Assembly: GCA_949751835.1 (NCBI GenBank)
Contig: CATKHK010000013.1
Location: 62,001-126,000 of the forward strand
Source of the DNA: Blepharisma japonicum
Lineage: Eukaryota; Ciliophora; Heterotrichea; Heterotrichida; Blepharismidae
DNA: 64,000 nt
Reading direction: 5' to 3'
Below, one piece after another: positions 2,810 through 39,877 of this stretch; the stretch's first letter is position 1; each line of letters starts with the position of its first letter. The notes below the pieces were generated by a model. It did no database searches and was not told where the DNA came from. It saw nothing but the letters and a program-made list of their open reading frames with translations. The position numbers and the translations under genes were made by a program.

Positions 2810-5800
2810 TTAAATATCAATATAGGTATCTTCTTCATCAACTCCTTCATCAAGTTTAATATTCTCCTCATTGAAAGTTGTAGCATCTATTGGATCTAAA
2901 ATAGGCGTCTCTTGAAATTCTTCTTCTGATTCACTTTCTAATTCATTATTTTCTTGATCATCATGATTGAAATTCTGTTTAGATTGAATCGGTTTGGCTT
3001 GAGCTTCCATATCTTGTATTATGCACACTTGTGCTAGTTTATTAATTTCATCCAGAATACTGTCCGAATATGACTCTTCAATAAAAGAATTGCCATACAG
3101 TAAAAGAAAAACATCATCTGTAGCATTTATTATTTTGACAACATTTTGAATAATCATAACATAAGAGATGTCTGGGTTATCTTTTTGGGCCAAAATAGAT
3201 TGGCTTGTATCAATGTTATATATTCACATATATTCTATGAGACTTTTATTTTTGTTGTACTGTTTAAAGCTCCCTTTTGGAAAAGATTCAAATGTATCTT
3301 TTGGGATACTCTCCCTTAATCCATAATTGTAAAACTGTAAAAGGTCGTTTCCTATTTGCATTGCTAATTGCTTATTCCTTAGCATTTCTACAACCGTTCC
3401 ACATTTACTGTCAAGATATTCTATTTTATCGTTAAACACGAGATTTAATCCAGTTAGCTTAAAAAAGTGTTTTTCAGATGAAGGAGAATTTATTATGACT
3501 GTCAGCAATTCATAAAACATGACATTTCTAAATTTTTTATCCAAAAGCCTATATAATCCCCGATTATCTTCTAAAAATAATTTAACTAAGCGATTTATTA
3601 GAGAGGTATTTAATGATTCTGTTCTTAAATCTTGAGGGTTCTTTAAGTATATATGAAGCTTTTTAAAAACATTAATTGGATATAAATAATAGAAATTCTT
3701 TTCAAACATGTAAGGGATATACGAGTAAGTGCAAGTAAGTAATGCATATGCGCAATACATTTTAAATAAGTTTGAAATTTGATGCTTAGGAATAAAGTGT
3801 TTATATTTGTCCAGTAAATCTAAAACACTGTTGCATGTTCTCTCAGAATTTCCTTTCTGAGCATAATTATATAAATTATACAAATATGTGCCTATGCCTA
3901 TAATAATTTTTTTTGATTGAAATTTATTTATAGCTTCAATATATGCAGTTTCTTTCCCAGCCAGCATTAAAAATAGTAGCGCATTTTTCAATATCCTGAA
4001 TGCTTTGTATGCAGACACAATATTATTCAAATTTTTAACTGCCTCTTTTCATAATACTATTTTAGAAGCATTGGTTATATTAATGCATGGAAAAGGTAAA
4101 TTTCCTAAATTGTTTTCTATATTCTTAATGAAAACAGATAATGTCCTATCACCAAATTTTGATGTATAAATCTCTCCACAAGTATTAAATATCCTGATTA
4201 TTTCATTTAACATATAGATTTCTCCTAAAATACAAATTCTGTACTCAAGTTTTTCCATTACTAATTGCCTTTGAGTGGATGATGAAACTCTGAGTTCAAT
4301 TTCTTTTCCTTTATCTTTATAAGTTCTATATTGTGATCGTTCATATATTAACTCACTGAGAGAATGCAAAATAGACTTTGCTATATCTTTAAATATTAGA
4401 TCTTTTGGAATAAGCCAATATTTTCCTTCAACATCAAAGGAGTATATTCTATTATCATCTTTATTCAAAATTATTTGGCTTCGGATGTACATATTACTCA
4501 TCACAACATGTGTCGAAAAAGGTAATAGCCTTGTATATTTATCTGGTGTAATTATAGTTATGCCTAAGGGTAATAAAATATACTCTAAAATAAAGCTTCT
4601 TATTGGTAGAGTAATTACATTCTCTATTCCAAGGAGTAATTTTATAATATTTTCAGCTACAAAAATAAATGCTTCCATTTCAGCTACATTTAAATGTAAT
4701 TTTATTCTAAATAAAGGTACTTCTTTTGACGACATTAATAGCAAAGACAATGCAGCACAAGATTCTATAGCTCTTAAATTTGCAGATGAATCACTTATCT
4801 GTAGGCAATCAAAGATATTATAAGGTCCAAAAAATAAACTTTTAATCCAAAAAATCATTTCATTAATATGACTGGACTCCTCTCCAAGGATAAAATAGTT
4901 AATTTCTTGGATATTTTTGAAGTAACCTTCAACTGAGAAATTTGAGATTGAAGAATTAACTTTTAAAGTAAAATTATTCTGTGAATTCGCAACAATCATA
5001 AGCTGTTCCAGAATTTTAAGAGGCTTCAAACTCCTTAAATATCTAGTTTCCAGGAATCTATCATATTCATTATTGTCCAAAAAATATAACTTTATTAAAT
5101 TTTTGCAGCTATTTTCTGGAATTATTTTTAAGATTTTTCAAAATCCTGATATAGCTAAGCTGTAACCTAAAATCTCTCTTTCATAAAATTCCTCATCTAG
5201 AAACATTAGAGCAGTCAGCACACTTCTGTATCTCATATATGGTCCAACCTTGAAGTTTTTATTAGATATAAAAGGTTTTGATAGTTTAAAAATAAAAGAA
5301 GCTAAATATCAGCATGATAAATCTGCTAGTCTCAATGTATTTGCTATTAGCATACATATTCTTGTATGAAAATCAGTGAATGAGTCAAGTAAAAATGAGA
5401 GAGGGATTAAAAAGTCCAAACCAAATTTATCAGAAAATAAGTCAAAAAAGCTTGGCAGATTGGACTGGGAAGATTTAATGAAACTAATTGTAGTTTCATT
5501 ATACAAAATTTTCCCAGCTCTTTGCTGGATATTTTTTATCATTACAGATGCCTGATTCAGTATTGTAAATAAAGATTTTGAGTCTAAATTATTGTTGGCT
5601 GATAGTCTCCCTTGGAAATTTTTTGATAATTCAACAAACTCATCTAGATTTTTTGATGTTGCTAAATATTTCTCAAATTCTGGATCTGACCCAAAAAAGC
5701 CATAATATAAACTAAAAAATTTAGAATTATCTCTCCTTTTGTCTATAAATGGTTCAGGGAGATACCCAGAAACTGATTCTCTAATAATTGATTGCAGTAA

Positions 5801-8800
5801 TAATTTAGCTTCTTTAAATTGAATTGAAGAAATATTTTTTTGAAAAACCTCCAAAGCTCTTTCACATTGCCCAGAGAAGATGCAGCATTTTATATGCAGA
5901 ACATACTCTGTTGTATGTTGGAATAGCATTTCTGCTTCTTTATAAAGCTTCAGCTTATAAAATGCCATTCCTGCTTCTTTGCACATATCTAATTTAATAT
6001 ATAATTCAGCTGCATCCATATAGTCTTCAGCTGAATAATAGCACTCTGCCGCCTCTTTTATATCTTCAGCTTCTTTAAATAAATCTGCAGCTTTCTCAAA
6101 CTTGATTAAAGTCCCCTGCATTTGCTTTTTATTTTCCTCTTTTTGGATTTTTGTTAGCCTTACTCCTGTTTCTTTTGCCTCTTCTTCTAAAGCAGAAATT
6201 TCAAGTCTAACTTTTTTCCCTTCTTCAGCATAAATTTTAGCACTCGCCAATTTCTCAAAAACCTCATCCCCAGCATTTTCAAAACAAAATTTTGCTATTT
6301 CATAGTTTCCTTGTTTATATAGCTTAATCCCTAGCTTTTTTCATTTATTTGTGTCTTTTGCTTCTTCATCTTGAATTCCTATAATATCTTGTCACGATAT
6401 TGAATGAACGATTCTTACAAGATTTTCTGATATTAAATATCTTTCAAGGGATATTCGACAAGAGTCATCTTCATCAAAGAAAATTAATCTTTTTCTTGCT
6501 CTTGTAATTCCTACATATAAATGTTTTAGCTCTGAGCATAATAAGCTGTTTTTCATGCCTTCTCTGATTTTTTTGATTTCATTTGGGTCATTTTCTGCGA
6601 GTCTTCCCCACTCGTTTTCATCGACTTCGCTGTCAGTAAAAAAATTATATAAAATTACGTCGTTAAATTCTAGTCCTTTCGATTCTAAAATAGTTAAACA
6701 AATTGCTCCTTTTAGGAAGCTTGGGAGATTTTTTCTTGATTCAGAGCTACGAACTAATATAGCTTGGTTCCATCCAAATTCAATATTAGAGCTTCTCTTG
6801 CTATTATTTTTATCAAGGCAGATCTCAATACCTTGCATTGATTTTACAATGATAGGTTTCTCTCCATCTTTATTAATAGAGGTTTCTTTATCAAGACGGT
6901 CTATACTATTTGGGAAAAAAGAAACCATCAGCTGAATTATCAAATTTGCAACATCTAAAATTCGCCCATGGCTTCTGAAATTCACTGATAAATGTTTTAC
7001 TACTGGCTGTGAATGAGCCATGATGTTTGCATCTAAAAATAATGAATTTAAATCACAAAAGCGAAATCCTGCGCCACGAGTGATTGATTGAGCGGTATCA
7101 CCTGCAAAAAATAATCTAAGCCTTGTAACTTTTAAAATTAATAGTAAAAAATTAGTGCTACAGTCTTGGACTTCATCAATAAAGGTAAAATGCATTGGGG
7201 ATCCATTATAGCCTTCATTATCCACACATTTCAATACATAGTTTACCAAATCTTGAAAATCATAGGCATTTTGCTTTGCTTTTCATTCCTCATATTTTAT
7301 AAAAATATCCCATATTTTGACTCTTTTCGAATTATCTATGATTTGTGACTGCTTTTTGCCTAAGCTTAAATATGCATCTTTTGATATGTACCCTTCATCG
7401 CTTTTATATGCATCTGCACTGCCTTTGATGGCTGAGCTTATTTCAGTCCATACTGCTATCGCAGAAAATCCTACCAAACTTCTCATCCTTGGCCAAAAAT
7501 GATCATTAAAATATTTAAAATCAATATTAAATGTAGGCACCAGCTTAGGCCCATCCTTAGTCTCAATATATCTCATTTTCATGCCCCTTTTTTTCTCGTG
7601 ATATCCAAAGTATCCTTCAGTGTTTTCTTCTCCTTGTACAAAAAATGGAGTATCTAGTGAAGCGTCAACTCTTGTAAGGAAGTTGAAAACAGGAATAAAT
7701 GCAGGAAAATGATCATCTGTAATATCTGAAAATGACTTGGGGAGATTTACATCTCAATCTTCTTCAATGTTAATAATCGACTCAATAAGCTCATTTTCTT
7801 CGATTTCTTCATATTCTACCTTTTTAATTGAGCATCTTAAGTGTTGGTATAAATTTTGATATAGCCGCTCTACTTCGCGAGTTAATATTGGGCTAACTGT
7901 TATAAAAATTTGATGAATGTCTTCTCTTTTATTAACATCTTCTATTGTTAGTAAATCTGTGTCAACAATTCCTGCTCTGTATAAAGAGATTTTTCTCAGC
8001 TTTTTAAATACAACGTCTGTAGCAAACATTCTGAAAATAGCTGTTGTCGTTTTGCCAGTACCTGACCTACCAATAATAAGGATATTATATGCAGCGCTTA
8101 TTATTTCTTTTTCTTCATCACTTAACTTTGAGGATTTTTCATAGCTTTTTAGCTTCTCCATAACTCTATTAAACTGAGAACAGAACTCTGCACTTGCCAG
8201 TTTATTCAAAATCTGCTGATTTTCATTTCTTTCACCAGTTCTTGCTTTCGCTATTTGTGATCAGACTTTTTGTTTTTGTCCTTTTCTCCATCTTTTTATT
8301 TCTGGAATGTAATGATATTGCGATCTTTCTTCAGGATTAAGTTTCTCGATTTTATAGTTAGCTGTGGTAGTTTTAAAATTCCTGGTTCTCATTTCATTAA
8401 TTAATAATCCCTCTACATCATTTTTTGAGACCCAAAGCTCTGGGACACCTTTTATTTCTTGAAGATAACTACTTGCAGATTTAAGGCTTTTTGTAATATT
8501 ATCTGTTAAATCAATAAGTTTAAGCAAATGAGCATAATTAAATTCAGTAAGCAAGTTGTTAAAAACAATAGGGATACGATTTATTTCTAAGGTAAAAAGG
8601 ATTCATTTTTCTGAATCATCAACCTTAATAGTCCTAAATTCTATTAGATCTCCTCTTATTTGTTCAATAACTTTGCTATCGCTGAAATACCCTCCAATTA
8701 GTTTAATAATAGTCCTTAAAACATTTTGTCTTTCATTTTCAGGTACTTTTGATGCTAAAAGCCCAAAATTTGGCAAAATCACAGGCTCCCATATTTGATC

Positions 8801-9112
8801 AACTATATATGAGTTTAGATTGAATGACTTTATCATCAATAATTCATCAGACAAAGTATAAAGCTCATCAGGATCTGGCTGCGGATGCGGCATATTCCCT
8901 TGCAGCACTAATTCAAAATTTTCATAAAATTCAGTGGCTCATCTAAAGAACATTTTCGCATTGTCATATTTAATGCATTCGCATTGGACTTGATATTCTG
9001 CAGAGTGCAATTCAAGCTGAGATTTAAGCGTTTGAATATTTTGGATGATCGTATTCTCAGTGTTCTGAATGAATTCAACCAGTGGAGAATTTAATTTGGA
9101 CTTTTTGGGCAT
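2810..9112 (-). CDS. UvrD/Rep-like SF1 helicase with TPR-like repeats (TRANK1-type), copy 1
   Basis: One uninterrupted frame of 2,100 codons, from ATG (MPKKSKL) to TAA, with about a dozen in-frame TGA read as Trp. The SF1A helicase motifs are complete and in order: Walker A GRSGTGKT near residue 348, motif II FIDEVQD near 646, motif III GDTAQSI near 673, motif IV VNFRSH near 711, motif V ESKGLEFNDV near 810 and motif VI YVGITRARKRL near 868. Residues about 1000-1080 form TPR-like helical repeats (AAECYYSAEDY, AAELYIKLDM). A long unrecognised helical region follows, and the tail is strongly acidic (ESESEEEF, then a DPID...FNEEN block). The architecture resembles animal TRANK1 and fungal UvrD/TPR proteins, so an ATP-driven nucleic-acid translocase is the likely activity; the biological role is unknown. 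The start was chosen by agreement with all paralogs, and a TAA lies in frame just upstream. Confidence 0.88.
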
Positions 9113-10129
9113 AATTGGATATAATTAAAACGCTTGCAAATGTAGGAAATTTGAGGGAATAAAGATGGAGGAGCTTAGAATTAATTTGCATTATTAAAGG
9201 AAAATAGTTGATTTTAAGAATTTTGCCCAATTTAACTCAAAGATTCTGATCTTTGATGCGATTTCAATAATAAATATCATAGCAATTTAGACTTAAGAGC
9301 ATACGCTTTAACTGATGATTTCACATTAGGCTAATACATAGTCAAGGCCCTTAAAGGTGAAGGAATAAGTGTTAATCCATGGCACTTAATGCAATCAATA
9401 TTTTAAATTCAATTGTGATAACCATACTAGCTTCTTCCAACACATGAATTAGAATGAGCAATCAAAAATATTTTTTTGTTATCTATAGGTCGAAGAGAGA
9501 AAAGAAAAAAGAAGTTTTTGCTTGCATTGCAAAGACTTTATAGACCTTAATTTTTGTTAGCTGAATAGAGCACTATAATGTGAGAGGAATTCATGCTAGA
9601 AGCAGGATGGTGGTTTTCGCAATGAAGGATATAAGAGTTTAGCTACCTACTTCGCAGGAGTTAGATTCTTATTAGATTAATTTAACCTTAAAAATTATAT
9701 CAACTTTTTCATTAAGCTTATAAATTGTCCAAATATAAATCCATATGGTTGGCCTAAATTATTTGACCATAGGGGATAGTTATAAGCAGACATTAATTGC
9801 TTCTACATAAAATGAAATGATCTTACCAAGTCAAAATTTCTACTGCTCGAGATCTAAAATTACCCCGCAGAAAACTAAAGATTGTGAGCATCTTCAATTC
9901 TTAAAATATTAAAGATTAATATGAGACTTTATTCTTTATTTTCTTCAATATATGCTCTTTGGTTTATTTAACGCAAATTAACTTACAATTCTACTGAAGT
10001 CAGAACCTACCACATGTTACAGATGAATTTGTATTAAATAAAAACTGATATTTGATTATAATTTTAAAATGAAAATTTATTTTAGAAATTATATCAATGA
10101 AAGTGCTTTCTCATAAGTTTAGTATTTTC
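9113..10129. other. Intergenic spacer, 1.0 kb
   Basis: Between copy 1 (5' end at left) and copy 2 (3' end at right). Apart from the upstream motif at 9153-9168 I see no coding frame, family relic or RNA gene. The middle (about 9240-9900) has stops in all frames. Confidence 0.55.
9153..9168 (-). promoter_or_regulatory. Family-conserved upstream motif, copy 1
   Basis: Gene sense CCATCTTTATTCCCTC, 41 nt before the ATG at 9112. Here the reading frame between motif and ATG contains a TAA, so in this gene the motif is not part of the protein. Confidence 0.5.
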
Positions 10130-13100
10130 TTAATTAATAAAGGTGTCTTCTTCATCAATTCCTTCATCAAGCTTAATATTCTCTTCATTAAAGGTCACTT
10201 CATCTATTGGATCTGCAACAGGTGCTTCTTGAGCTGCATCTTCTTCTAGCTCACTCTCTGATGTGCTGGATTCTCCATCATCACGGTTGAAACTCTGATT
10301 ATAATAGATTGGTTTGGCTTGACCTTCTTCATCTTCCAAAAGGCAAACTTGCGCTAATTGGTTGATTCCTTCTGAAGATCAATCACTATATGAGTCTTCT
10401 ACAAAAGATTTTCCATATAGCATATTAAATACACCATCTGCTTCATTTATAATTCTTACAATATTTTTGATAATCGTAGTATCAGGCATTTCTGAATTGT
10501 TCTTTTGGGATAAAATTGATTGAATCTCGTAAAGAGTGTCAGTCCACATTCTTTCTATACTTTTTTTAAATTTATTATATTGATTATAATTTCCTTTGGA
10601 AAAATAATCGAAATTATCAAATGGTGCATTCTCTCTTGATTCAATGTCACAGAATTTCAAAAGATCATTTCCTATTTGACTTGCAAATTTTCAATTTCTT
10701 AGCATTTCGACAACGCTCCCAGTTTCATTATAAAGATATTTTAATTCCTCATCATTAAAAGTTCTATTGTAGAAGATCTCTTCTAGCTTTCCTTCTTCTT
10801 TATATATTGAATCTTTATGCTCCAGATCTAAATTTGTCAAAGCGTAGAAATGCTCTTCAGGTTCGGTAGAATTTATGATTAGAGTTAAACATTCATAAAA
10901 CATGCCTGTTGTAAATTTACTATCCAATCTTTTGCTTAGGCAGTTCTCATCTCCTCTGTATATTTTAATAAAATCTTTTATAAGAGAGATATTTAATGCA
11001 TTTGTTTTTTCATCTTGTGGATTAATTATATAACTGTGAAGTTTTTGAAAAACTTCAATAGGATAGTAATAGTAGAAGTTTTTTTCAATACTAAAAGGAA
11101 TAAACGAATAACTACATGTCAATAATGCATATGCACAATACATTCTAGTCAAGTTCGGTATTTCTTGCTGGGGAATAAACCTCTTATACTTATTTAAAAA
11201 CTCAAAAATTGTCCTGCATGTGCCCTCTGGGTTTCCTTGATAAGCTTCATTATACAAATCATATAAATATCCTCCTATACCTTTAATATATTGCAAATTT
11301 GATTTACTAACGAATTCACTATAAATAGCTACTTCTCCAGATAATCATGAAAACAGTAATGCATTTCTTAATTGTCTGAATGCATTTTTTGAGGGGAAAC
11401 TACTATTCAAAATTTTATTTGCTTCAATTTTAAGCACTTCTTTTGAAGCTTTAGTAATATTAATACAAGGGAAAGGTAAATTTCCTAGATTATTCCCCAC
11501 ATTTATAGTAAAAGCAACTGACGTTCAGCCGCCAAATTTTGACTTATATTTTTCACCACAAGAATTAAATATGTCAATTATCTTATTCAGCATATAGATT
11601 TCTCCTAAAATGCAAACTCTATATTCAATTTTTTCTTCTAATTTTCTCTTTTTAGAAGATGAAACACTAAGTTCGAATTGACGCCCAGATTCATTAAAAG
11701 TTCTATATTGTGATCTTTCATATATTAACTCGCTGAGAGAATGCAAAATAGACTTCGCTATATCTTTAAATATAAGATCTTTTGGAACAAGCCAATAATT
11801 ACCTTCAATATCAAAGGAATAAATTCTTTTGTCATTTTTACTTAAAAGTAAATGACTTCTTATATACATACGGCTCATTACTACATGAGTTGAAAATGGC
11901 AATAGCCTAGTATATTTGTCTGGAGTAATTATAGTTATTCCTAAAGGTAATAAAATAGACTCCAAAATAAAATTTCTTTTTGGAGGACTGATCACATTTT
12001 CTATGCCAAGGAGCAACTTTATGATATTTTCAGCTACAAAAATAAATGCTTCCATTTCAGCTACATTTAAATGTAATTTAATTTCATTTAAAGGTATCTC
12101 TTTTGATGACATTAAGAGTAAAGATAATGCTGCGCAATATTCAATATCTCTTAAATAAAGAGCTAAGTTGTTTATTTTAATTCTATCAAAAACAATCGTA
12201 GGGCCATAAAATAAATCTTTAATCCAGTCAATCATTTTGTTTATATCATATAGCTCATTGCCATTATTAAAGTTGGCAATTTCTCTGATATTTTTAAAGT
12301 ATCCTTCATTTGAAAAATTTGAGCTTTCAAAGTTGACTTTTAAGGTAAAATTATTTTTTAGATTTGCAGAAATAATAAGCTGTTCTAAAATTTTTAAGGG
12401 TTTTAGATCTTTGAAATATTTCATACCGAGAAATTTATTATATTCCTTACTGTCCAAAAAATACAAATTTATTAAATTTTTGCAACTATTTTCAGGTATC
12501 AATTTTAAGACTTTCCAAAACCCTGATATAGCCAAGCCGAACCCTAAAATCTCTCTATCATAAAATTCTTCGTCTAAAAACATTAAAGCAGTCAGCACAC
12601 TTCTATATCTCAAGCATGACCCTTTTTTGAAGGTTTTATTAGATATAAATGGCTTTGATAATTTAAAAACAAAAGAAATCAAATACCAGCATGATAAATC
12701 TGCAAATCTTAACGTATTTGCTAGCAGCATGCATATTCTTGTGTGCGACTCAGAAAATGAATCAAGCAGCAATAAAAGGGGGGCTAAAGGCTCTAAACCA
12801 TATTTAACAGAAAATAAGTCCAAAAAGCTTGGTAGATCAGGCTGACAAGTTCTGATAAAATTCATTGTAGCTTCATTATACAAGTTATTTATTGGGGAAT
12901 TTTGCTGGATACTTTGCATAATTATTGCTGACTGTTTAAGAATAATAAATAAGTTTCTTTCATCTAAAATATAATTAGCTGGCCATTGGAATTCTTGGAA
13001 CATTTTTGATAATTCCACAAGCTCATCTAGGTGCCGAAAACTTTTTAAATAATTTTCAATTTCTAAGTCAGTAGCTTCAAAGCTATCATATAGACTGATA

Positions 13101-16100
13101 AATTTAAAATTATTTTTCCCGCTATCGGAAAATGGTATAGGGAGGCATCCAGATATTCATCCTCTAATTATTGACTGCAATAATAACTTGGCTTGCTTCG
13201 GCTGAATCGAAGTGAAATATTTTTGATAAGATTCTAATGCTTGCTCATAGTGCCCAGAAAGGATGGAGCACTTTATATATAAAACATACTCTTGTGTATG
13301 CTTTAAACACATTTCTGCTGCCTCATAAGACTTATTCTTATAAAATGCCAATCCTGCTTCTCGACTCATGCCAAGCCTAATATACAATTCAGCAGCTTTC
13401 ACATAATCTTCAGCTGAAGAGTAGCATTCAGCAGCTTCTTTTATGTCTCCAGCTGTATTAAACAAATCTGCAGCTTTCTTAAATTTTGCCAAAGTTTCTT
13501 GAATTCTTATTTTATTACTTTCTTTTTGAGCCTTTGTAAGTCTGACTCCTTTTTCTTTTGCTTCTTCTTCAATAGAAGCTATCATAAGTCTGACTTTTTT
13601 TGCATCTTCTGCATATATTTTAGCAGTTGATTGCAGGACAAGAGTTTCGTTTCCAGTTCTTTCGAAGCATAATTTAGCTCTTTCATAATTCCCTTGTGAG
13701 TATAGTTTAAGCCCTTGCTTTTTTCATTGGTTTGTATCTTTAGCTTCATTATCTTGAGTTCCTGCAATATCTGATCATGTCATTGAGTCAACTATTCTTA
13801 CAAGATTTTCAGCTTCTAAACATCTTTCAAAAGACGCTCTGCATGAGTCATCTTCATCATAGAAAATTAATCTTTTTTTAGCTCTTGTAATTCCTACATA
13901 TAAATGTTTTAGTTCTGAGCATAAAAGACTTTTTTTCATGCCATCTCGCATTTTTTTAATTTCATTTGGGTCATTTTCTAAATATTTTTCAAGTCTTCCC
14001 CATTCATTTTCATCGACCTCACTATCAGTAAAAAAATTGTATAAAATAACATCATTAAATTCCAAGCCTTTTGACTCTAATATAGTCAAACAAATTGCTC
14101 CATTTAAGAAGCTAGGGAGCTTTTTTCTTGATTCTGAAGTCCGAACTAAAATAACTTGATTCCACCCAAACTCAATATGTTCATTTCTCTTATTACTGCT
14201 TTTATTAATACATATTTCAATGCCTTTTATTGATTTTACAATGATTGGTTTTTCTCCATCTTTATAAGAAGTTTCTTTATTGAGACGATCTATACTATTG
14301 GGGAAAAAAGAGACCATTAGCTGAATTAGTAAATTGGCTATATCTAATATGCCTCTATGACTTCTAAAATTGACTGATAAATGCTTTATTATAGGCTGCG
14401 AGTGAGTCATTATAGCCGCATCTAAAAATAGTGAATTTAAATCACAAAACCGAAATCCAGCGCCACGGGATATTGATTGAGCTGTATCACCTGCAAAAAA
14501 CAGCCTTATTCCAGTAATTTTTAAAATTAATAGCAAAAAATTAGTACTACAATCTTGGACTTCGTCAATAAAGGTAAAATGCATTGGGGATCCACTATAG
14601 CCTTCTCTATCTATACACCTTAATACATAATTGATTAAATCTTGAAAATCATAAGCATTTTGTTTTTCTTTCCATGCCTCATATTGCATAAAAATATCCC
14701 ATATTTTGGCTCTTTTCGAACTATCTATTATTTGAGACTGTTTTTTGCCCAAGCCTAAATATGCATCTTTAGTTATATGCCCTTCATTATTTTTATATGC
14801 GTCTGCACTACCTTTGATGGCTGAACTTATTTCAGTCCATGTTGTTATTGCAGAAAAATCGCCCAAACTTCTAATTCTTGGCCAAAAATGATCTTTGAAG
14901 TATTTAAAATCAATATTAAATGTAGATACTAACTCAGGCCCATCAGGAGTCTCGATATATCTCATTTTCATGCCTATTTTTTTCTGATGGTATCCAAAGT
15001 ATCCTTCAGTGTTTTCTTTCCCTTGTGCAAAAAATGGGGAATCTAGTGTAGCGTCCACCCTTGTGAGAAAATTAAAAACAGGAATAAATGCAGGAAAATG
15101 ATCATCATTAAAGTCTAAAAATGATTTGGGAAGATTAACGTCTTGGTCTTCATCTATGTTAATAATAGAATCGGCAAGATCGCCTTCTTCGATTTCTTCA
15201 AATTTTACCTTTCTTATTGAGCATCTTAAATGCTGATTTAAATTTTGATAGAGCCGCTCTACTTCACGAGTTAATATTGGACTTAATGTTATGAATATTT
15301 GATGTATGTCTTCCTTTTTATTAACATCTTCTACTGTTAGTAGATCTGAATCAGCTGTCCCTGCTCTGAATGAAGATATTTTCCTTAATTTCTTAAATAC
15401 AACATCAGTAGCAAACATTCTAAGAATAGCTGATGTAGTTTTTCCAGTACCTGACCGACCAATGATAAGGCTATTACATGCAGTGCTTATTATTTCTTTT
15501 TCTTCGTCACTTAACTTTGAGGATTTTTCATAGCTTTTTAGCTTCTCCATAACTCTATTAAACTGAGCACAATATTCAACGCTTGACAATTTATACAAAA
15601 TCTGCTCATTCTCATTGTTTTGGCCACTCTTTGCTCTCGCTATTTGTGACCAAACCTTTTGTTTTTGCCCTTTTCTCCATCTTTTTATTTCTGGAATATA
15701 ATGATATTGTGATCTTTCTTCAGGATTAAGATCAACCATTCGATAGTTGGCTGGTGACGTTTTAAAATTCTTGATTTGCATTGCATTAATTAATAGTCCT
15801 TCTACATCATTTTTTGCGACCCAAAATTCTGGGACACCTTTAATTTCTTGCAGATAAGTACTTGCAGATTTTAGGCTTTTTGTAATATTATCTGTTAAAT
15901 CAATAATTTTTAACAAGTGCACATAATTAAAATGATTGAGCAAGCTATTAAAAGAAACAGGGAAGCAGTTTACTTCCAAAGTAAAAAGGATTCATTTTTC
16001 GGACTCATCGACTTTCAAGGTCCTAAATTCTATTAGATCTCCTTTTATTTGCTCAATAACTTTGCTATCAAAGAAATACCCTCCAATTAATTTAATAATG

Positions 16101-16501
16101 GTCTTTAAAATATTTTGCCTTTCATTTTCGGGTGCTTTTGATGCTAAAAGTACAAAACTTGGTAAAATCACAGGTTCCCACAGTTGATTATTAATAGATG
16201 AGTTTAGATTGAATGATCTTAATATTAATGACTCATCAGAAAGGGAATAAAGTGCATCAGGATTTGGCTTGGGCGGTGGCCTAGTCCCTTGCATTACTAA
16301 TTCAAAATTTTGATAATATTCAGATGCCCAATTAAAGTACATTTTTGCATTTTCATATTTAATGCAGTCACATTGGACTTGATTCTCTGCTGAGTGTAAT
16401 TCAAGCTGAGATCTAAGCGTTTGAATATTCCTGATGATTGCATTCTCAGCATTTTGTATGAATTCAATTAAAGGAGAGTTTAGTTTTTGCTTTTTTGGCA
16501 T
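10130..16501 (-). CDS. UvrD/Rep-like SF1 helicase with TPR-like repeats, copy 2
   Basis: A frame of 2,123 codons, from ATG (MPKKQKLNSPL) to TAA, with at least eight TGA read as Trp. The whole helicase core is readable: GRSGTGKT, FIDEVQD, FFAGDTAQSI, VNFRSH, ESKGLEFNDV and YVGITRAKKRL. A TPR-like segment follows (AAECYSSAEDY, AAELYIRLGM), then a long C-terminal region with a conserved block reading RLLPFSTHVVMS. The acidic tail contains DPIDEVTFNEEN, close to that of copy 1. Copies 1 and 2 are clearly sister genes, with near-identical helicase motifs and tails. No key helicase residue is lost, so the product should be an active ATPase. Cellular location cannot be read from the sequence: no clear signal peptide or membrane segment was seen. 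Confidence 0.88.
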
Positions 16502-17330
16502 AATTAGATAAACAAGAAGCTTATAAATATAGTGAAAAATTGAGGGAATAAAGATGGCAGAGCTTAGATTTAAGAAAGGCTATTTTAATATTAAATGAGG
16601 AATCTGAATTAACCCACACAACATATAGATTGTGATTATTGAATTTGTTCAGACTGATTATTAAAAATAAAATAATAATATTTCATGCTAAATGCCAATT
16701 AAAATATTAAATTGTTTATAATAACTCTGATCAATTTATTCTATTGTCGATTACTGCATCTATTATCTATTCTTGCCTTTCAGCTCTTCTTTATCTATGA
16801 TTGAGAAAATTTTATCTGTTATTTGCTCAATCAAGTACTTTTTCATGTTTACATGAAATTTTTTAGAGATCTAATAGGTTGGCTTTGAAATGACTCATCT
16901 TGCTTAGTATAAAATTGAGAGAGTTCATTGATTTCCTCCAAAATAGAGTCAATATATACTTCTTCTATAAAATAATTTTATAATCTCATTTATTGCTTTA
17001 ATGATATTATGTATTCTCAATATGTCAGATATCCTAATTGATTTCTTTTATCAAAAATCGATTTCACATCAAATCAAATTAGCTATAAAGTTTCAACTTT
17101 ATTTCTATATTTTAAAATATTTTTAAAACTTATGTTTCGCAAAATTTCATATATTTATTCTAGAGAATTTTTTCTAGATCCAAAATAATAAAATGTTAAT
17201 TATCTGATCTTATTGCATTCTCTAAGCTGAATTTATTCTCCAATTGAGCAATTATCCCTTTGAAGTTATAAGGATATTTAATTTCATTGGAATAAAAATT
17301 TCGATTATAAAAAATCATTTAGCTTAGAAT
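16502..17330. repeat. Direct repeat, left copy (5' flank of copy 2 plus a gene 3' end)
   Basis: This stretch aligns by eye with the right copy beginning at 17879. Both start at the ATG of a copy-2-like gene, pass through the GAGGGAATAAAGATGG-type motif and the same AT-rich spacer, and then enter sequence matching the C-terminal coding end of copy 3. The left copy carries many small differences and no longer codes. Confidence 0.7.
16542..16557 (-). promoter_or_regulatory. Family-conserved upstream motif, copy 2
   Basis: Gene sense CCATCTTTATTCCCTC, 41 nt before the ATG at 16501. The frame from motif to ATG is open here, so an N-terminally extended start cannot be excluded on this copy alone. 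Confidence 0.5.
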
Positions 17331-24937: not shown

Positions 24938-25329
24938 CTGACAATTTTTTGTATGCATATGCAGGTGTATGCAATTAAAGAAAAGTATTAAAGAATTACT
25001 TTAAGCTTGTTTTTGCTTAAATTAAATTGAAAGGAAATAACTATCCTCAAATAAAAGGTTATCATATTTTTAATATTTTATTTTTAGTTATTGAACTTTA
25101 TCTTCTATTATAGCTAAGAATTCATAATGATTCATGCATCAAAATGTATTTTAAAAAATAAATTAATAATTAAAAGCATTGACTCTTAAAAATTATAAAG
25201 CCTCGATTTTATATAAAGCTATTGCATTGTGAATAGAATTAAAATGATAATGCTATTTAAATTAATTGAATTTCAAAATAATAGGTTTTAAAACCTATAT
25301 TTAAGGTAGACTAAAAATGCAAAGTATAA

Positions 25330-26015: not shown

Positions 26016-26019
26016 TGCT

Positions 26020-29300: not shown

Positions 29301-32300
29301 AGAGGATCGAGGTCAAATTTTTCTGAAAATAAATCAAAGAATTCTGGAAGCTCACTTTGGCACGTCCGAATAAAATCAATAGTTCCTTGGTTGTAAAGAG
29401 TATCTATTTCTGATCTTTGTTTTAAATTATGTAAAATTGTTGCTACATGTTTAAGGATCATAAATAGAGTTTTAGAGTCCAAATTGTTATTAGCTGACAC
29501 ACTTCTTCTGTCATAAAATTCTTTGGATAATTGTACAAATTCATCTAATTTTTTTGAATTCTCCAAATATTTATCAAAATCAGAATCTGGAGCTATAAAG
29601 CTATCATAGAGCTTTAAAAATTTTCAGTTATCTTTATTTTTGTTTAAAAATGGCTCTGGAAAGTATCTGGATACTGATCCTCTGACCATTGATTGCAATA
29701 ATGATCTTGCTTCCTTCTCTTCGATTTTTGAGATATTTTGTTGGATTGCATTTAAAGCTTTATTGTAGTTTTCAGATAGAACGCAGCATTTAATATGCAT
29801 TGCATAGTTGCTAGTATGCTGATAAAATTTTTCTGCTTCGCTATAGCGCTTAAGTTTATAAAAAGATAACCCTGCTTCTGGGCACATGTTAAGTTTAGAA
29901 AATAGCCTAGCAGCATTCACATAATCCTCAGCAGAAGAATAGCAAAGTGCAGCTTCTTTATAATCTCCAATTTCTTCAAAAGTAGTTGCAGCATTCTTAA
30001 AACTAAATATAGTTTCTTGAAATTTTCTCTTGTTTTCTTCTCTTTGAGGTTTTGTGAGTTTAACACCTGTTTCTTTTGCTTCATCTCTAAGTGAAGAAAT
30101 TTCTAAACGAATCCTTTTAGCAGCCTCTGCAATAATAGTTGCATCTATTTTTTTAATAAGATTCAACTCTCCTGCTTTTTCAAAATAAGTTCTTGCTTCT
30201 CCATAATTTTTTCGTCGAAATAGCTTCATTCCTTGTCTTTTCCATAAATTAGAACTTCCAACACTTGTTCTATCATTTTGAATTTCAGCTATTTCATCTG
30301 CCGACATTGAATCATAATCAAATATTTCAATTAAATCCTGAGATTCCCAGCACTTTTGCAGTGATTGCCTGCAAGAATCATCATCGTCAAAAATCATCAG
30401 ATTATTTCTCGTCCTTGTGATGCCTACATATAAATGTTTTAGCTCTGAGCATAGCAAACTGTTTTTCATGCCTTCTCTCGCCTTTTTAATTTCACCTGGA
30501 TCTTTTGTCAAAAATTTTGCAAGCCTTGCCCATTCATTTTCCTCTACTTCGCTGTCCGCGAAAAAATTGTATAAAATGACATTATCAAATTCTAGCCCTT
30601 TTGATTCCAAAATAGTCAGACAAACTACCCCTTTTAGCACTTTTTTAAGTTTTTCCCTCGACTCAGGCGTGCGAACAAGAACGACTTGATCACAGCCAAG
30701 CTCACAATTTGTGCTCCTTTTGGAAATTTTTCGAATACATAAGCTGAGCTGCTCTACTGATTTTGATTTTATAATAACTGGCTGAGGTCCATGATATGGA
30801 GATGTTTCTTTTTCTAATCGATCAACAAAATCAGGGAAAAAAGCGAGCATTAACTGAATTACTATATGAGCAACTTCTAGTATTTCTGTATGGCTTCTAA
30901 AATTCACTGAAAGGTGCTTTATTACTGGCTTTGAGTGGTTCATTACTGAAGTCTCCAAAAATAAAGAATTTAAATCACAAAAACGAAATCCTGCACCTCT
31001 GGTTATAGATTGAGCTGTGTCTCCTGCAAAAAATAATTTGAGCTCAGTTATTTTTATTATCAATAGAAGAAAGCTGTTGCTGCAATCTTGAACTTCATCA
31101 ATAAAAGTAAAGTGAATTGGAGATCCTTTGTATCCTTCATACTCAATGCATTTTAATGCATAATTGACTAGATCTTGGAAATCATAAGCATTTTGCCTCT
31201 TTTTCCAAGCTTCATACTGTACAAAAATATCCCATGCTTTGATTCTTTTAGAGCTCTCTATTTGGCACTGTTTTTTTCCTAAATTCAAGTATATGTCTCT
31301 GTTTATGTGCCCTTCTTCTCTTTTGTAGGCATCTGAGCTGCCTTTAATTACTGAGCTAATTTCTGTTCACATCATTATGGAAGAAACTCCAATCAAACTT
31401 TTTACTCTTGGCCAAAAATTTTGGTCAAAATAATCAAAATCTACCTCAAATGTCGATTTTAGCTCAGTACCAGATGCAGTTTCAAAATATTTCATTTTCA
31501 TCCCTGTCCTCTGTTGGTCATAAGCGATATTTCTTTCATAGTTTTCTTCTCCTTGGGCAAAAAATGGGGAATCCAGAGTTGCGTCTATTCTAGCCATTAA
31601 ATTGGAAACTGAAATAAAGATAGGGAAATGGTCATCTTCAAAATCTAATAGAGATTTGGGTAGTTTAACATCAGATTCTTCATTTTGGTTGAAAAAATGA
31701 TCTTCAAGATCATCATCTTGGCTCTTTTTGTATTCAATTTTTTTAATAGCGCAGTTTAGCTGCTTTTTTAAGTCTTCATAAAGTCGGGTTACTTCGAAAA
31801 TCAAAACTGGGCTTACAGTGATAAAAATTTGATGGAGATTTACCTTTTTGGCAACATCATTTTCAGTTAAACTATTAGTAGTCAACAGTCCAGCCTGATG
31901 TAAATGCATTTTTGATTTTTTTTTAAATACAACTTCTGTAGCAAACATCCTGAGGATCGAAGAAGTAGTTTTCCCTGTTCCAGATCTACCAATAGTCAAT
32001 AAGTTTGATGATTCACTAATTATAGACCTTTCCTCTTCGCTCAGTCTAAATTTGAAGCTTTTAAGCATTTCCATTACCTTAATAAATTGAACGCAGCTTT
32101 CTGGACTTGCAAGCTGGGATAAAATCTGTTGATTTCCTAAAGAAATAGCATTGATAACTTTGAGCGAGTCTGATTTTTCTTTTTGTTTTTGCCCTTTTCT
32201 CCATCTTTTAATGTTTGGAAGATACTTATATAGCGATCTTTCTTCTGGTTTTAGCTTTTCAGTGTCATAGTTAGCTGCCATTGTTTTAGAGTTATATATA

Positions 32301-33034
32301 TAGGCATTATTTATTAGAAGTGGTTCTATATCATTTTTCAAAACCCATAGCTCTGGGACGTCTTTTATTTGCTGTAAATATGAGCTTACCAATTTGATAC
32401 TTTTGGCATTATTTTCAGCTATGTCTATAATTTTTAGCAATTGGACATAATTGAATCCATCAATTAGCCCATCTAAAACTATGGGAAAGCGATTTATTTC
32501 TAGATCAAAAAGAATTCATTTTTCAGGATTTGATATTCCTTCAACTTTAATTGTCCGAAATTCAACTGAATCCCCTTCAATTTGTTCAATTACTCTACTT
32601 TCGTTTAAGTATCCTCCAATTAATTTAATAATAGTCCTTAAAATATTTTGTCTATTATTTTCAGACTCTTTCATAGCAGCAGACCCAAAACTTGGCAAAA
32701 TTACTGGCTCCCATACTTGATCTTCTATTCATGAATTTAGATTGAATGATTTTAATATTAATGATCAATCTGAAAGCAAATAAAGCTCGTCAGAATTTGG
32801 CTGATCAAATGGCCTGTTCCCTTGGAGCATTAGCTCGAAATTCTCGTAAAATTCTATTGCTCATTTGAAGAATAGCCGAGAGTACTCATATGAGGCACAT
32901 TCGCAATTTGCATAATATGTTGAAGAAAATATATTCAGCTGGCTTTTGAGGGTTTGAGTGTTTTCAATAATGGTATTCTCTGTATCTTGTATGAATTTTG
33001 CAAGAGGAGAGATTAGCTTTTGCTTTTTCGGCAT
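26306..33034 (-). CDS. UvrD/Rep-like SF1 helicase with TPR-like repeats, copy 4
   Basis: A frame of 2,242 codons, from ATG (MPKKQKLISPL) to TAA, with numerous TGA read as Trp. Walker A GRSGTGKT lies near residue 349, FIDEVQDCS near 646, then FFAGDTAQSI, VNFRSH, ESKGLEFDNV and YVGITRTRNNL. TPR-like repeats (AALCYSSAEDY, AARLFSKLNM) follow the helicase core. The C-terminal half carries LLPFSTHVVMS and an acidic, charged tail with DPIDKVKFDEEN ending NEDW. One Trp of the WTEISS block is TGA here (31367-31369) but TGG in copies 1-3, direct evidence that the two codons are interchangeable. Copy 3 is the closest relative. An in-frame ATG lies further upstream at 33121. Confidence 0.88.
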
Positions 33035-33427
33035 AATAAAAAAAGTGAGGGAAATGCAAATGTAGCATGCTTTTGAGGGAAAAAAGATGGTGTATATTTT
33101 TGTATGCAGGCATATGCTCATGCATGCAATTAAAGAAGAGTATTATAAAGGACAAGTGTAAAGCTTAAATTGAAAGAAAGTACCGCCTTAGTTAATAAAA
33201 ACATTTGCTCTTAAAAATATATTTTATATAAAGCCATTGCTTTTTAAATTTTAAATACAAATAATAATTCTGCTTAAATTGAAATTCATAGGTGCTTAAA
33301 AGCCTAATAATGAAAAATTTGTAAATAATTACTTAAAAATTATAAAAAAATTTATTGCGGTCCTTCTGATTTTTTACAAAATAAAAAACTAAATATTTAT
33401 AATATTAAATGAATTAAACACTATCTA
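33035..33427. other. Intergenic spacer, 393 bp
   Basis: AT-rich spacer between copy 4 and copy 5 carrying the upstream motif at 33075-33090. Its sequence partly reappears upstream of copy 3. No gene seen. Confidence 0.55.
33075..33090 (-). promoter_or_regulatory. Family-conserved upstream motif, copy 4
   Basis: Gene sense CCATCTTTTTTCCCTC, 41 nt before the ATG at 33034. Confidence 0.5.
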
Positions 33428-36400
33428 TTACTTAAAATTCATAAAATAAGGATCAATCTCTGTTTCTGTTTCTGTAGAGAAAAATTCAAAGCCTTCCTCA
33501 ATTTTTTCTCGCAATATTAATTTTTTTTCATTGAATTTCACTTCATCAAGCGGGTCTTTTAAATTAACTTTTATTTTTTCATTCTTATTATATAAACTAT
33601 CCTCATCTTCAGATTCAATTTGGTCATTTTCATCTTTATTTTTTATTCTTTTAGAAAGGACCTGCCAATTTTCAATATTTTCATCAGACAAAATTCAATT
33701 AATCACTTGGTCTTTTATGTATCCCAAAATTATATCATTGTATTGTTCTTCTGTCAATGAATACTCATAAATTCTACTAACTGTTTCGGAGCAATTATTC
33801 ATTAATGTAATAATAGCCCTCATAATATCGAGATCAGGAATTTCTCTTTGTCTTCTATTACTCAGCAATAATAAATATCCAGAAGATACATTTTCATAGA
33901 TATCCTCAATTACTTGGCTGAATTCTAGAAATTTGCTGAAATTCGCTCTAGGCAAAGTTTCAAAAACTGAATAATTAATATTATGTATATCTTTTATATC
34001 ATACACTTCCAAAAGATCTTCTCCAATTTTCCCAGTAAAATATCTATCTATTAAAATATTAGAAATTCTGTTATTTTCTTCATCTTCATATTTGTAAATA
34101 TATCTAAGGCTGTTTATGCTGAAGTTCTGGCACTGAAATATTTTATTTAGTCTTTCGCTTTCATAAATGAAATCTTCAGGAATAAAGCCTAAAGATATGA
34201 GCTTCTGGAAATTTTCTTCTGAATTTTTTGAGTTCATGATTACAGTTAGACATTGAATAAACATTTCTTTTAATTTTTCCTTATTCTTATTATTGTCTAA
34301 GCAAAACTTTTCATTTAGCAATCAAATATCTTTAAATAACTCAATCATATTATTTATTAAAGATATATTTGAATCAATTTGATCATAATTTATATAATTT
34401 TGGAGATTATTGTAGATTGATATTGAATAGCAATCATAGTAAGGCTTAACCAATTTAGCAGGTATTAATTTTTTTGGGCATGCTAGTAAAGCATGTGCAC
34501 AATATATCTGAAATAAACTAGAGGCTTCTACAAAATGAATATTTTTTAGATTTTTACTTAAAATTTTTCATATTGAATGGCAGGTGCTTTCAGGATATCC
34601 TTCATTTGCACATGATACAAATTTTAATATATTCTTGGTCATTTTATGGATATATGAAATCTTTTCATCAGAAAATATTTTTTTCAATAAAACTTTATTT
34701 AATAAGTCCATAAATATGTGCTCTTCCCCCACAAGCAATAAAAGTAAATAGGAAACTTTAAGTATCGAAAAAATAGTGTGCATTTTGTAGAGACTTGACA
34801 GTGTTTTAATTGCTTCATCTTTTATAGCTTTTCTGGAAGCAGAAGTTAAATTTATATATGAAAACGGTAGCCAGCATATATAACATTTAATCTTTTTAGC
34901 ATAATCATTGTAAATTTCACCTCATATTCCAGACTTATAATTAATCCCGCATGAGTTGCAGAGTGCTTTAATGTCATTTACCATAGAAATTTCTCCTAAA
35001 ATGCATATTTTATGCTCAAGAACTCGTGCTGATGGTCTTTCAATTGTATTAAAAGGATAATTTTTTAAATTTGCTAATTTAATTCTTTCATAAATAAGCT
35101 CATTTAGAGAATGCAAAATTAATTTTGCAATATCTTTAAAAATTAGAGCTTTAGGAACAAGCCAATAATCTCCTTCTATATCAAAGGAATAGGTACTTTT
35201 ATCACTTTTATTCAAAATTATTTCGCTTCTTATGTAATATTTGCTCATAACAACATGTGTTAAAAATGGCAATCATTTGGTACACTTCCCGGGGATTATT
35301 AATTTTATTCCAAATGCTAACAAAAAATATTCCAAAATTTTGCTTCTTTTCTGGGTTTCTATACCATTCGGCTTTTCCAACAAAAGTTTAATTATATTGT
35401 CTGCGATGACCATTAAAGCTTCCATTTCATCAATTTGTAAAAATAATTTGATTTGATGCAGCATTTGGTTTGAACCTACTAATAAAAAGCATATCCCTGC
35501 CCAATTTTCCATAGAAACTTTTGGGTCTTCATGTATAATATCATTATTAATAACATTGTGATCACCTATCAATAGATTTCTAAACCAAAATCTTAAATCG
35601 TTTAATTCTTCATTATTATGATCATTCAGTCTATGAACTTCTCTCATTCAATAGTAATCGTCATCATTTTCTAAGCGAAAACCATCAAAATTTCCATTTA
35701 TTGTCATATGATTATCTGAATTAGCAAAAGCTATTACCTGTTCGAAGTGTTTTATTTCTTTTAATTCAATAAAATAATTTTTTTCTTGTAGTTTATTATA
35801 TTCTTTTCTTCCTAAAAAATACAAATTTATAAGATCTTTGCACGCATTTTCTGGGATAAATCACAATAGTTTTCAAAACCCAGAAATAGCTAAACCAAAC
35901 GATAAAATCCCGCGGCTATAAAAGCTTGGATCTATAAATATAAATCCCGTGTAAATACTTCTGTATTTAAAATAGGAAAATGCATCTTTTCTATAATTAT
36001 TGCAGGATAAAAATGGTTTTGAGAGTTTAAAAACAGATGAAAGAAAATATCAGCAAGATAAATCAGCCAATCTTAATGAATTTGCTATGAGAATGCATAT
36101 CCTTTTATTATAGTTTATGAAGGAATCAAGAAGAAATGATAGGGGCGCTAAATCATTCAAAGCAAACTCATCAGAAAATTTATTAAAAATATCAGGTATT
36201 TTTTGGCAGTCTTTTATAAAATCTATTGTTTCTGTATTATATAATATCCTGCTACCCCTAGTGTTTTTAACAAATTTTTCTAAAGTTTTAGCAATGTATT
36301 TCAAAATTAGAATAGTATTTTTTGGGTCAAGTTTGTTATTTGCAGATAAATTTCTATTTTTACTAAAAAACTCTTCAGATAACTCTCCAAATTCATCACC

Positions 36401-39400
36401 GCTCCGATATGTTGCTCAATAATTTTTAAATTTTAATCCCGGAAATACAAAAATATCGTCAAAATCTCTATATTCATGACCATCTTTATTATTATCTACA
36501 AACGGCTCAGGAAAATAGCATGATAGCCTACATCTTATTATTGATTGTAATAATAATTTTGCATCATTATCTGGAATACCTAAAATATATTTTTCAAGGG
36601 AAGTTAAAGCTTGATCACAATTATTAGCAAGTACATAACATTTCACGTGCATTACATAATCTTGGCTCCTTTCATAAAGATAAGCAGCTTTTATATAACA
36701 TTTTGCTTTATAATATGCCACTGCTGCTTCATGGATCATATTTGCTTTTAAAAATAATTTAGCTGCATTTTTATAGTCTTCTAAAGAGCTATAGCACATT
36801 GCTGCTTCTTTAAACTCACTTGCACTTTCAAATAATTTTGCAGCGTTTCTAAACTGGCCCATAGCTTTTTTCTTATTTCTGCTAATTTCATCTTTTTCTG
36901 CATTTTTGAGTCTTCTCCCAGTTTCTTTTGCCTCTTCTTTAACTGCAGCTATTTCAGAGAATAATTTTTTCCCTTCTTCAGCAGAAATTGTAGCATCTAT
37001 TTTTTTAATTAAAATTTCATCTCCTGCCTTGTGCCAACAAAACTTTGCTTGCCCATAATTTTTTCTATTAAATAATTGATATCCCAACCTCCTTCAAGTT
37101 TCTTGGTTATTTCAGTCAAAGTTTTCATTTTGTGGCTCAATCATTTCATTTTGAATTTCTATATTAAAATCAAATAGATCAATTAATTGATTAGTCATTC
37201 AGCATTTTTGTAGAGATTCTCTGCAGGTACCATCTTCATCAAATATTATTAATTTTTTCCTTGCTCTTGTAATTCCTACATATAAATGTTTCAACTCAGA
37301 GCATAATAAGCTGTTTTTCATGCCTTCTCGAGCTTTTTTAATTTCATTTATATCGCTATCAATAAATTTTGAAAGCCGCGCCCATTCATTTTCTTCAACT
37401 TGGCTGTCATTAAAAAAGTTATATAAAATTACATCATCAAATTCTAGTCCTTTGGATTCTAATATAGTCAAACAAATAGCTTCCTTTAACATATTAGGAA
37501 GGTTTTTTCTTGCTTTATCAGTCCTTACAAGAACAACTTGATTCCATCCAAATTCAATATCAGTAGTTCTTTGAGAAACCCTTTGGATACAAAGTTTAAG
37601 CATATTTATTGAGTTTGAATTCACAATAATAGGTTTAGCTCCATGAATTGTAGACGTTTCCTTATTAAGCCGATCTATAAAATCAGGGAAAAAAGTCACA
37701 ATTAATTGTACAACTATATGAGCAACTTCTAGTATTTCTGTATGGCTTCTAAAATTCACTGAAAGATGCTTTATAACTGGCTGTGAGTGGTTCATAACTG
37801 AAGCCTCTAAAAACAAAGAATTTAAATCGCAAAAACGAAATCCTACACCTCTAGTTATAGATTGAGCTGTATCTCCTACAAATAATAATTTCTGCTCAGT
37901 TAATTTTAAAATTAAAAGTAAAAAATTGTTACTACAGTCTTGAACTTCATCAATAAAAGTAAAATGAATTGGAGAGCCTTTATAGCCTTCATTATCAATA
38001 GTTTTTAGCACATAATTCACCAAATCTTGAAAATCATACGCATTTTGCCTTTTTTTCCAATCTTCATACTGCACAAAAATATCCCAAATTTTTTTTCTTT
38101 TATCAATATCTATTTGTGACTGTTTTTTCCCTAAATTTATATAAGTCTCCTTTTGGATATGCCCATCTCTGTCTTTATATGCTTCTGGGCTCCCTTTGAT
38201 TACTGAGCATATTTCTGATCATATTGTGATTGGAGAAATCCCTATCAAGCTTCTCAGTTTTGGCCAAAAATGATAAGAAAAATAGTCAAAATCAATTTCA
38301 AAAGTAGGAACTTTTACAAAACCGTTAGGAGTATATAAGTTTCTTACCTTCATGCCTCTTTTTATAAGATGATAAGCTATATTTTCTTCATTATTTTCTA
38401 CTCCTACAGCAAAAAATGGGATCTCAAGACTTGCATCCACTCTGGTCAGAAAATTAAAAATAGGAATAAAAAAAGGAAAATGTTCATCCTCAAAATTAAG
38501 CAAAGAATTAGGGAGATTTATATCTGAGTCTTCATTTGGGTCAAAAAAATGGTCATTAAGTTCCTCTGCAGCTGCATTAAATACTTCTCTTCTTATTGCA
38601 GCTTCAAGCTGCCTATGCAAGTTATCATATAGTCTTTTAACCTCAAATACCAAGACTGGGCTTACAGTTATAAATACTTGATGCAGATTTACCTTTTTTC
38701 TGACATCATCTGTAGTCAAATTGCTGGTTTCTAGCATTCCGGAATTATGCAGATGAATTTTCGATTTTTTTTTGAAAACCATTTCTGCTGCAAACATCCT
38801 AAGAATTAACGAAGTGGTTTTTCCAGTACCAGAGCGGCCAATTGCTAGCTGGTTTGAAGACTCACTTATTATTGCTTTTTCTTCATCACTTAGCCTAAAT
38901 TTAAAACTCGTTATTTTTTCCATCATTTTGATGAATTGTAAGCAGCTTTCTTGGCTGGCCAGCTGGTTTATAATTTGATTATTTTCTTGGATCGTACTGT
39001 TTGCGCCTTTACCTGAAATTGATCAGACTTTTTGTTTTTGCCCTTTTCTCCATCTTTTTATTTCTGGAATATATCTATAACGCGATCTTTCAATAGGGCA
39101 AAGCTTAAAAGCGATAAAGGTAGCTGGTATAGTTTTATATTGTTTGACATAAGAAGCACTCTTTCAAAATCTCATCCATTTAGGAACCCACAATTCTGGG
39201 ACACCTTTTATTTCTTGGAGATACGCACTAGCAATTTTTAAGCTTTTACTATAAGTATCAGCTAAATCAATAATTTTTACCAACTGGATACAAATAAATT
39301 CATCAAGTATTCCCTTTACCAGTACTGGAAAGCGATTTATTTCTATGCTAAAAACAATTCATTTATCAGGGTTTGACAAACCTTTAACTTTTATAGCCCG

Positions 39401-39877
39401 AAAACTGACAGACTCGCATGTAATTTGATCCATAATTTTGCTTTCATTGAAATATCCTCCGTTTAGCTCAATAATGGTCCTTATAATATTTTCTCTATTA
39501 AATTCCGAGTCTTTCATTGCAGATAGTGCAAAATTTGGTAAAATCACAGGCTCCCATAATTGGTTCTCTTTTAGGGAGTTCAGGTTAATTGATTTTAATA
39601 TTAAAGATTCGTCAGACAGCAAATAAAGCTCTTCAGGATTTTTCTGGTCAAACTGCTTATTACCTTGAAGCATTAGCTCGAAATTCTCATAAAATTCTAT
39701 TGCTCATTTGAAAAATAATTTGGAATAGTCATAATTTGCGCATTCACAATTCACTCGGTATGTTAATGAGTACAAATTAAGCTGCGCTTTGAGGATTTCG
39801 GCATTTTTAATGATACTCATTTCGGTGTTTTGAATAAATTCGACTAGAGGAGATTTTAGCTTCGGCTTTTTTGGCAT
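33428..39877 (-). CDS. UvrD/Rep-like SF1 helicase with TPR-like repeats, copy 5 (divergent)
   Basis: A frame of 2,149 codons, from ATG (MPKKPKLKSPL) to TAA, with many TGA read as Trp. The helicase core is intact: GRSGTGKT near residue 347, FIDEVQDCS near 643, LFVGDTAQSI, VNFRSH, ESKGLEFDDV and YVGITRARKKL. TPR-like repeats follow (AAMCYSSLEDY, AAKLFLKANM). The C-terminal half is the most divergent of the array: GKYTRLLPFSTHVVMS becomes GKCTKWLPFLTHVVMS and the tail (DPLDEVKFNEKK, ending DPYFMNFK) is less acidic. The strong helicase conservation beside C-terminal divergence suggests selection on the enzyme with a changing partner-binding part. It may be the oldest or outgroup copy of the right-hand subgroup. 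Confidence 0.87.

Follow-up and report, generated by a model that had tools for sequence, protein, structure and literature searches.

Why do several giant helicase genes lie in a row at this locus, what keeps them there and what might their products do? In the window, by which we mean the whole stretch of 64,000 nucleotides that was analysed, exactly five frames exceed 2,000 codons if only TAA and TAG are taken as stops, and all five are located on the minus strand. They are g1 (2810..9112, 2100 aa with TGA read as Trp), g2 (10130..16501, 2123 aa), g3 (18129..24881, 2250 aa), g4 (26306..33034, 2242 aa) and g5 (33428..39877, 2149 aa), the last being the most divergent by its identities. Each is an open frame with an MPKK start and helicase motifs I-VI. 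The original prediction of five intact head-to-tail minus-strand genes at 2810-39877 is thus borne out by the frame scan and the MPKK starts, whereby the single-exon structure is read from the open frames alone. The array may extend beyond the left edge of the window.

TGA codes for Trp in the array genes. Their six frames (stop to stop) contain 59 TGA codons, and the residues aligned to these in other copies are 152 W, 26 L and 4 C among 253 non-gap positions. A ciliate code with TAA and TAG as Gln was ruled out, because TGA = Trp opens the five frames of more than 2,000 codons while no frame exceeds 1,095 codons with TGA as sole stop. UGA is described as a Trp codon in Blepharisma stoltei (PMC9942806), and a ciliate origin of the array is consistent with the code described there. 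The pairwise identity among the intact copies is only 47.5-71.7%. Hence a single gene duplicated in assembly does not account for them, and the assembly artefact that had been considered beforehand can be set aside.

The array also contains at least three decayed copies (n0, R1 and R2), which were absent from the earlier count. The first, n0, is a frame of 761 codons (89..2374, minus strand) whose similarity to the family ends near residue 746. Its motifs I-IV are altered, motifs V and VI were not found, and its nearest copy is g1 (73.6% identical). Since n0 alters 56 of 341 positions that are invariant in g2-g5, compared to 15 of 341 in g1, it is most likely a pseudogene. The dN/dS up to residue 740 is 0.27 for n0/g1 and 0.16 for g1/g2. 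R1 is a relic in several frames between g2 and g3 (16855..17878, minus strand, found by tblastn) that has lost its middle. Its N-terminal piece is nearest to g2 (E down to 2.8e-24) and its C-terminal piece nearest to g3 (6.4e-36); between both lies a short second N-terminal-like match which is g5-like (E 3.2e-4). R2, a relic between g3 and g4, preserves a C-terminus like that of g5, split between two frames (25314..26016, minus strand, tblastn E 1.1e-30). Nearest relatives adjoin each other (g1/n0 73.6%, g1/g2 71.2% and g3/g4 71.7% identical), and identity between groups is 47.5-57.9% for the intact copies. The history of the array, as read from these sequences, is one of tandem birth and death by duplication and deletion.

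The remaining part of the window holds other genes. Two adjacent, similar-looking aldo/keto reductase frames are found beside the array on the minus strand (41169-42212 and 42259-43305); the one of the pair that was scanned, 42259-43305, matches Pfam Aldo_ket_red. The plus strand carries a pair of neighbouring histidine kinase frames (55711-57816 and 59414-61534) with the domains HisKA, HATPase_c and Response_reg, so tandem duplication may be common in the region. The frame at 44493-46160 (minus strand) encodes a protein of 556 aa with a KIAA2026-type helical domain and, judged by eye, an AT-hook-like stretch; it is possibly chromatin-related. Further Pfam matches are Snf7 at 50134-50796, a serine/threonine phosphatase (Metallophos, STPPase_N) at 54308-55294 and ANAPC5 at 61621-63834.

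The helicase region was delimited by the helicase alignment and the motifs. It is located at 6422..8122 in g1, 13805..15511 in g2, 22182..23891 in g3, 30335..32044 in g4 and 37187..38893 in g5 (all minus strand), for g3 additionally with the PDB profile matches of that alignment. Complete superfamily-1A (SF1A) motifs had been predicted for all five copies, and expressions written from the sequences indeed recover six motifs in order in 5/5. We take these to be motifs I (GRSGTGKT), II (DEVQD), III (GDTAQS), IV (NFRSH), V (ESKGLEF) and VI (LYVxxTR). Among the three copies scanned (g1, g3 and g5), Pfam UvrD-helicase (PF00580) is above its curated cut-off in all three and UvrD_C (PF13361) in two. 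A profile of the helicase region matches AddA, UvrD, PcrA and Rep in the PDB (E 9e-7 to 5.6e-4). The Gln of the Q-motif is common but not universal in SF1A UvrD-type helicases. Here it is replaced by Glu (Glu334 of g3), which is invariant across the five copies and aligns with Gln15 of AddA in an ungapped, weak match (0.5 bit). With Glu at this site, the enzymes would be predicted to be less strict in their choice of adenine.

The helicase is followed by a TPR-like helical stretch, for which the support is weak. In g3 it comprises residues about 928-1110 (21552..22100, minus strand), as delimited by AlphaFold2 block means and weak TPR matches. AlphaFold2 gave two models of low quality (mean pLDDT 34.8 and 38.6), owing to alignments of five sequences each. 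The sole extended confident part, with pLDDT above 50 and block means of 60-84, is found at about residues 927-1049. The TPR-like repeats of the original prediction are hence retained as a helical TPR-like stretch at this position, but not as confirmed repeats: Pfam TPR_2 stays below its cut-off in g3 and g5 and is absent from the g1 list, and the chains listed by Foldseek, mostly TPR or TPR-like by name, have low TM-scores with none at E <= 0.001.

For the C-terminal half beyond this stretch there is no Pfam match above cut-off in g1, g3 and g5, the copies scanned, nor does the PDB give any match up to E 1. The C-terminal model consists of helices without strands, which means little at such low confidence. 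This half had been called fast-changing. That holds for alignment columns 1700-2200, where identity is 21-59% in the six intact pairs tabulated (46-59% in the two close pairs) and where g3/g4 are longer by about 100 residues, but the change is patchy, as columns 1500-1600 keep 64-85% in the same six pairs. A charged acidic tail was correctly foreseen in all five copies. It ends in a conserved D-P-x-D-x(3)-F-x-E motif (in g3 18132..18341 for tail and motif, minus strand, from invariant alignment columns), whose D, P, D, F and E are invariant in 5/5 intact copies. The conserved motif suggests one docking partner common to all copies.

All parts of the gene are under purifying selection, as dN/dS stays below 1 for each pair and region that was computed. 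Whole-gene values for the four pairs computed are dS 0.87-1.62 and dN/dS 0.16-0.25. By region, the close pairs g1/g2 and g3/g4 give a dN/dS of 0.13-0.22 for the N-terminal extension, 0.09-0.12 for the helicase, 0.19-0.26 for the TPR-like part, 0.13-0.21 for the middle, 0.20-0.24 for the C-variable part and 0.21-0.29 for the tail. The maximum over all regions is 0.29, so that the repeated adaptation once proposed for the C terminus is not borne out. The bootstrap intervals of the helicase slightly overlap those of the C-variable part (0.09-0.15 versus 0.14-0.35, and 0.07-0.13 versus 0.11-0.30). In distant pairs, where synonymous rates are saturated, C-variable part and tail reach 0.30-0.59, the peaks being 0.47 (g3/g5, C-variable part), 0.49 (g1/g3, tail) and 0.59 (g3/g5, tail), all below 1.

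Maximum likelihood over the five copies yields 0.157 for the N-terminal extension, 0.092 for the helicase, 0.085 for the TPR-like part, 0.097 for the middle, 0.139 for the C-variable part and 0.054 for the tail, whereby the rates are near saturation and the tree of the tail (53 codons) was unusable. The disagreement with the pairwise values on TPR-like region and tail is a sign of saturation. The C-variable part is somewhat less constrained than the helicase, yet not less than the N-terminal extension. Hence the separate comparison of both parts that had been proposed does place the C-variable part (0.20-0.24) above the helicase (0.09-0.12), but the N-terminal extension is likewise raised. Of the predicted conserved enzyme with a divergent C terminus, the more divergent C-terminal part stands, while the half as such does not stand out in maximum likelihood dN/dS. 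Positive selection may act at a few codons.

Synonymous sites add to this picture. At shared residues g1/g2 use the same codon in 526 of 716 cases within residues 1-900 and in 483 of 751 thereafter; the higher synonymous identity in residues 1-900 gives p 0.00016, 0.00063 and 0.024 with three filters. The same comparison is mixed for g3/g4 (p 0.071, 0.017 and 0.18). As synonymous identity falls along the gene, part of the divergence gradient is not due to selection on the protein. Gene conversion or synonymous constraint could explain the higher values at the 5' side. A clustering test for exchange between copies was not convincing. Sites that join g1 with g4 are concentrated around g3 residues 1634-1718, but 85 of 2000 shuffles reach the same degree of clustering; with two other window sizes the figures are 80 and 1291 of 2000. 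Windows of unusually high codon identity were matched by 5 of 500 shuffles for g3/g4, 8 for g1/g5, 14 for g4/g5 and 36 for g3/g5, uncorrected for 11 pairs. Nine windows contain a between-group pair that exceeds a within-group pair or differs from it by no more than 0.01.

The copies share more than their coding regions. An alignment of the regions upstream of the array starts contains one conserved block, from which a 16-base element with the consensus CCATCTTTWTTCCCTC was first read. At <=3 mismatches CCATCTTTWTTCCCTC is found nine times in the window, whereas 100 shuffles give 1.68 matches on average and never more than 5; two of the matches lie inside array coding sequence (3 mismatches) and seven upstream of array starts, i.e. 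at 7/7 (five intact copies, n0 and R1). The 5' end is located exactly at -56 in 5/7, namely in g1 (9153..9168), g2 (16542..16557), g3 (24922..24937) and g4 (33075..33090) with no mismatch and in R1 (17919..17934) with one. In n0 it is found at -53 (2412..2427, 1 mismatch) and in g5 at -32 (39894..39909, 3 mismatches), all on the minus strand.

Since the pattern was read from those same copies, it is partly by construction that every array start carries it, and shared ancestry could also play a part. Two points are independent of this. The element is absent upstream of the 11 other genes tested (0/11, best match >=5 mismatches, with the first or a chosen Met of each frame as start), and it is conserved against diverged flanks, with a mean pairwise identity of 0.89 versus 0.39-0.69 in non-overlapping upstream windows. 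A coding extension was ruled out: in g1 an in-frame stop separates the element from the start, and the g5 frame offers no upstream start codon. In viral contigs CCATCTTTWTTCCCTC matched 54 stretches, taken as chance. The most plausible reading is that of a promoter or leader element shared across the array, through which the genes are probably co-regulated.

Judging from sequence features, the array proteins are most likely ATP-driven nucleic-acid translocases on a helical scaffold. Our leading explanation is tentative and, taken as a whole, somewhat short of an even chance. According to it, a tandem family of giant SF1A (UvrD-type) helicases, in what is probably a ciliate, grows and shrinks by duplication and deletion. 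Purifying selection maintains the intact copies, and the shared upstream element probably turns them on jointly. Each protein would move as an ATP-driven translocase on single-stranded DNA or RNA, its TPR-like part and helical C-terminal half would form a scaffold that binds partners, and the motif after the acidic stretch would dock a partner common to all copies. The copy turnover would reflect a use in surveillance of nucleic acids or in defence, as vertebrate TRANK1 and bacterial GajB suggest by analogy. Some UvrD-type helicases serve in defence. Together with the copy turnover and the response of vertebrate TRANK1, this indirectly makes surveillance the leading guess. Speaking against it, the array shows no positive selection and is in this respect unlike many arms-race genes. 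Repair, developmental genome editing and plain dosage are close rivals to surveillance.

The first of these rivals, somewhat unlikely in our view, is that the family does housekeeping or developmental DNA work, i.e. repair, replication or programmed DNA elimination, with copies specialised by life stage. In line with such work, the relatives of solved structure are helicases of bacterial repair and replication, but a tandem array in which copies decay would be unusual for a core repair helicase. In Blepharisma, many genes for DNA repair and chromatin reportedly go up while the new macronucleus develops, which fits as well, yet the words 'helicase' and 'UvrD' are absent from the main text of that report (PMC9942806).

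Alternatively, the copies might be ordinary tandem duplicates without special function, present for dosage or by drift, with several of them decaying. At least three decayed copies, two other adjacent duplicate-looking pairs in the window (aldo/keto reductases and histidine kinases) and a low dN/dS with no strong C-terminal signal would agree with that. However, five frames that exceed 2,000 codons and are still intact at dS 0.87-1.62 and dN/dS 0.16-0.25 speak of long-term constraint, and we hold this explanation to be unlikely. Very unlikely, finally, is a diversifying recognition family whose C-terminal half is repeatedly reshaped for changing targets: columns 1700-2200 are indeed just 46-59% identical in the two close pairs, g3/g4 do carry their extra stretch of about 100 residues there and the C-variable dN/dS exceeds that of the helicase, but dN/dS is <1 everywhere computed, N-terminal extension (g1/g2, 0.22) and TPR-like part (g3/g4, 0.26) match the C-variable part, synonymous divergence rises in parallel and the test for exchange was not convincing.

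How does the array compare with known systems? With the SF1A helicases UvrD, Rep, PcrA and AddA its proteins share motifs I-VI in order as well as the Pfam and PDB profile matches. They differ by about 330 more residues before the helicase and about 1,200-1,350 after it and by Glu in place of the Q-motif Gln; moreover, the similarity is weak (PDB profile E 9e-7 to 5.6e-4). In viral contigs, four protein scans (g3 residues 1-1383 and three alignments, one of them of the helicase) returned no relative; these scans used two to six short peptide patterns each, by which distant relatives can be missed. One scan of prokaryotic genome contigs led from 93 pattern matches to a single locus, a distant bacterial helicase with 26% identity. 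Its frame of 532 codons is located near a contig start, is perhaps incomplete and has no long C-terminal extension.

Among defence systems, the Gabija protein GajB is the one to compare. In 3/3 copies scanned, PADLOC models of GajB hit parts of the helicase core, weakly and at best with E 3.5e-9, as may be expected of a UvrD helicase. The matched models are 471-589 long, whereas the array proteins exceed 2,000 residues, and a GajA-type partner was not found among the nine neighbouring frames scanned.

Giant eukaryotic UvrD-type helicases are, to our knowledge, little studied. In the open-access literature no paper was found on TRANK1 and UvrD together, nothing on an array of such helicases, and no UvrD among the matches listed for ciliates (Tetrahymena, Paramecium, Stentor, Blepharisma). 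TRANK1 itself appears in a table of interferon-stimulated genes (PMC6880163), is described as regulated by IRF7 under a double-stranded RNA analogue (PMC4505898) and is given as upregulated in virus-positive cells (PMC10269786). If the array responds to foreign nucleic acid, it would bear on this unexplained response of TRANK1 to virus and interferon. With its intact, decaying and deleted copies and the shared element, the array would provide a system for testing function, induction and turnover, and its host, probably a ciliate, is of a kind that may be culturable. One could go further and regard the array as a fast-turnover, co-regulated TRANK1-like cluster for innate nucleic-acid sensing, vertebrate TRANK1 being what is left of an ancient family of antiviral helicases in eukaryotes; we consider this very unlikely.

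TRANK1 (TPR and ankyrin repeat containing 1) and TRANK1-like proteins are giant eukaryotic proteins that combine a UvrD-type helicase with TPR repeats. The motif wording of the array helicases presumably resembles that of TRANK1-like eukaryotic helicases, and the array proteins may be akin to these in their size, UvrD-type helicase and TPR-like stretch. Unlike TRANK1, the array copies show no ankyrin repeat among the Pfam matches up to E 1 in 3/3 scanned (of five intact copies), and five intact copies stand here in a tandem array.
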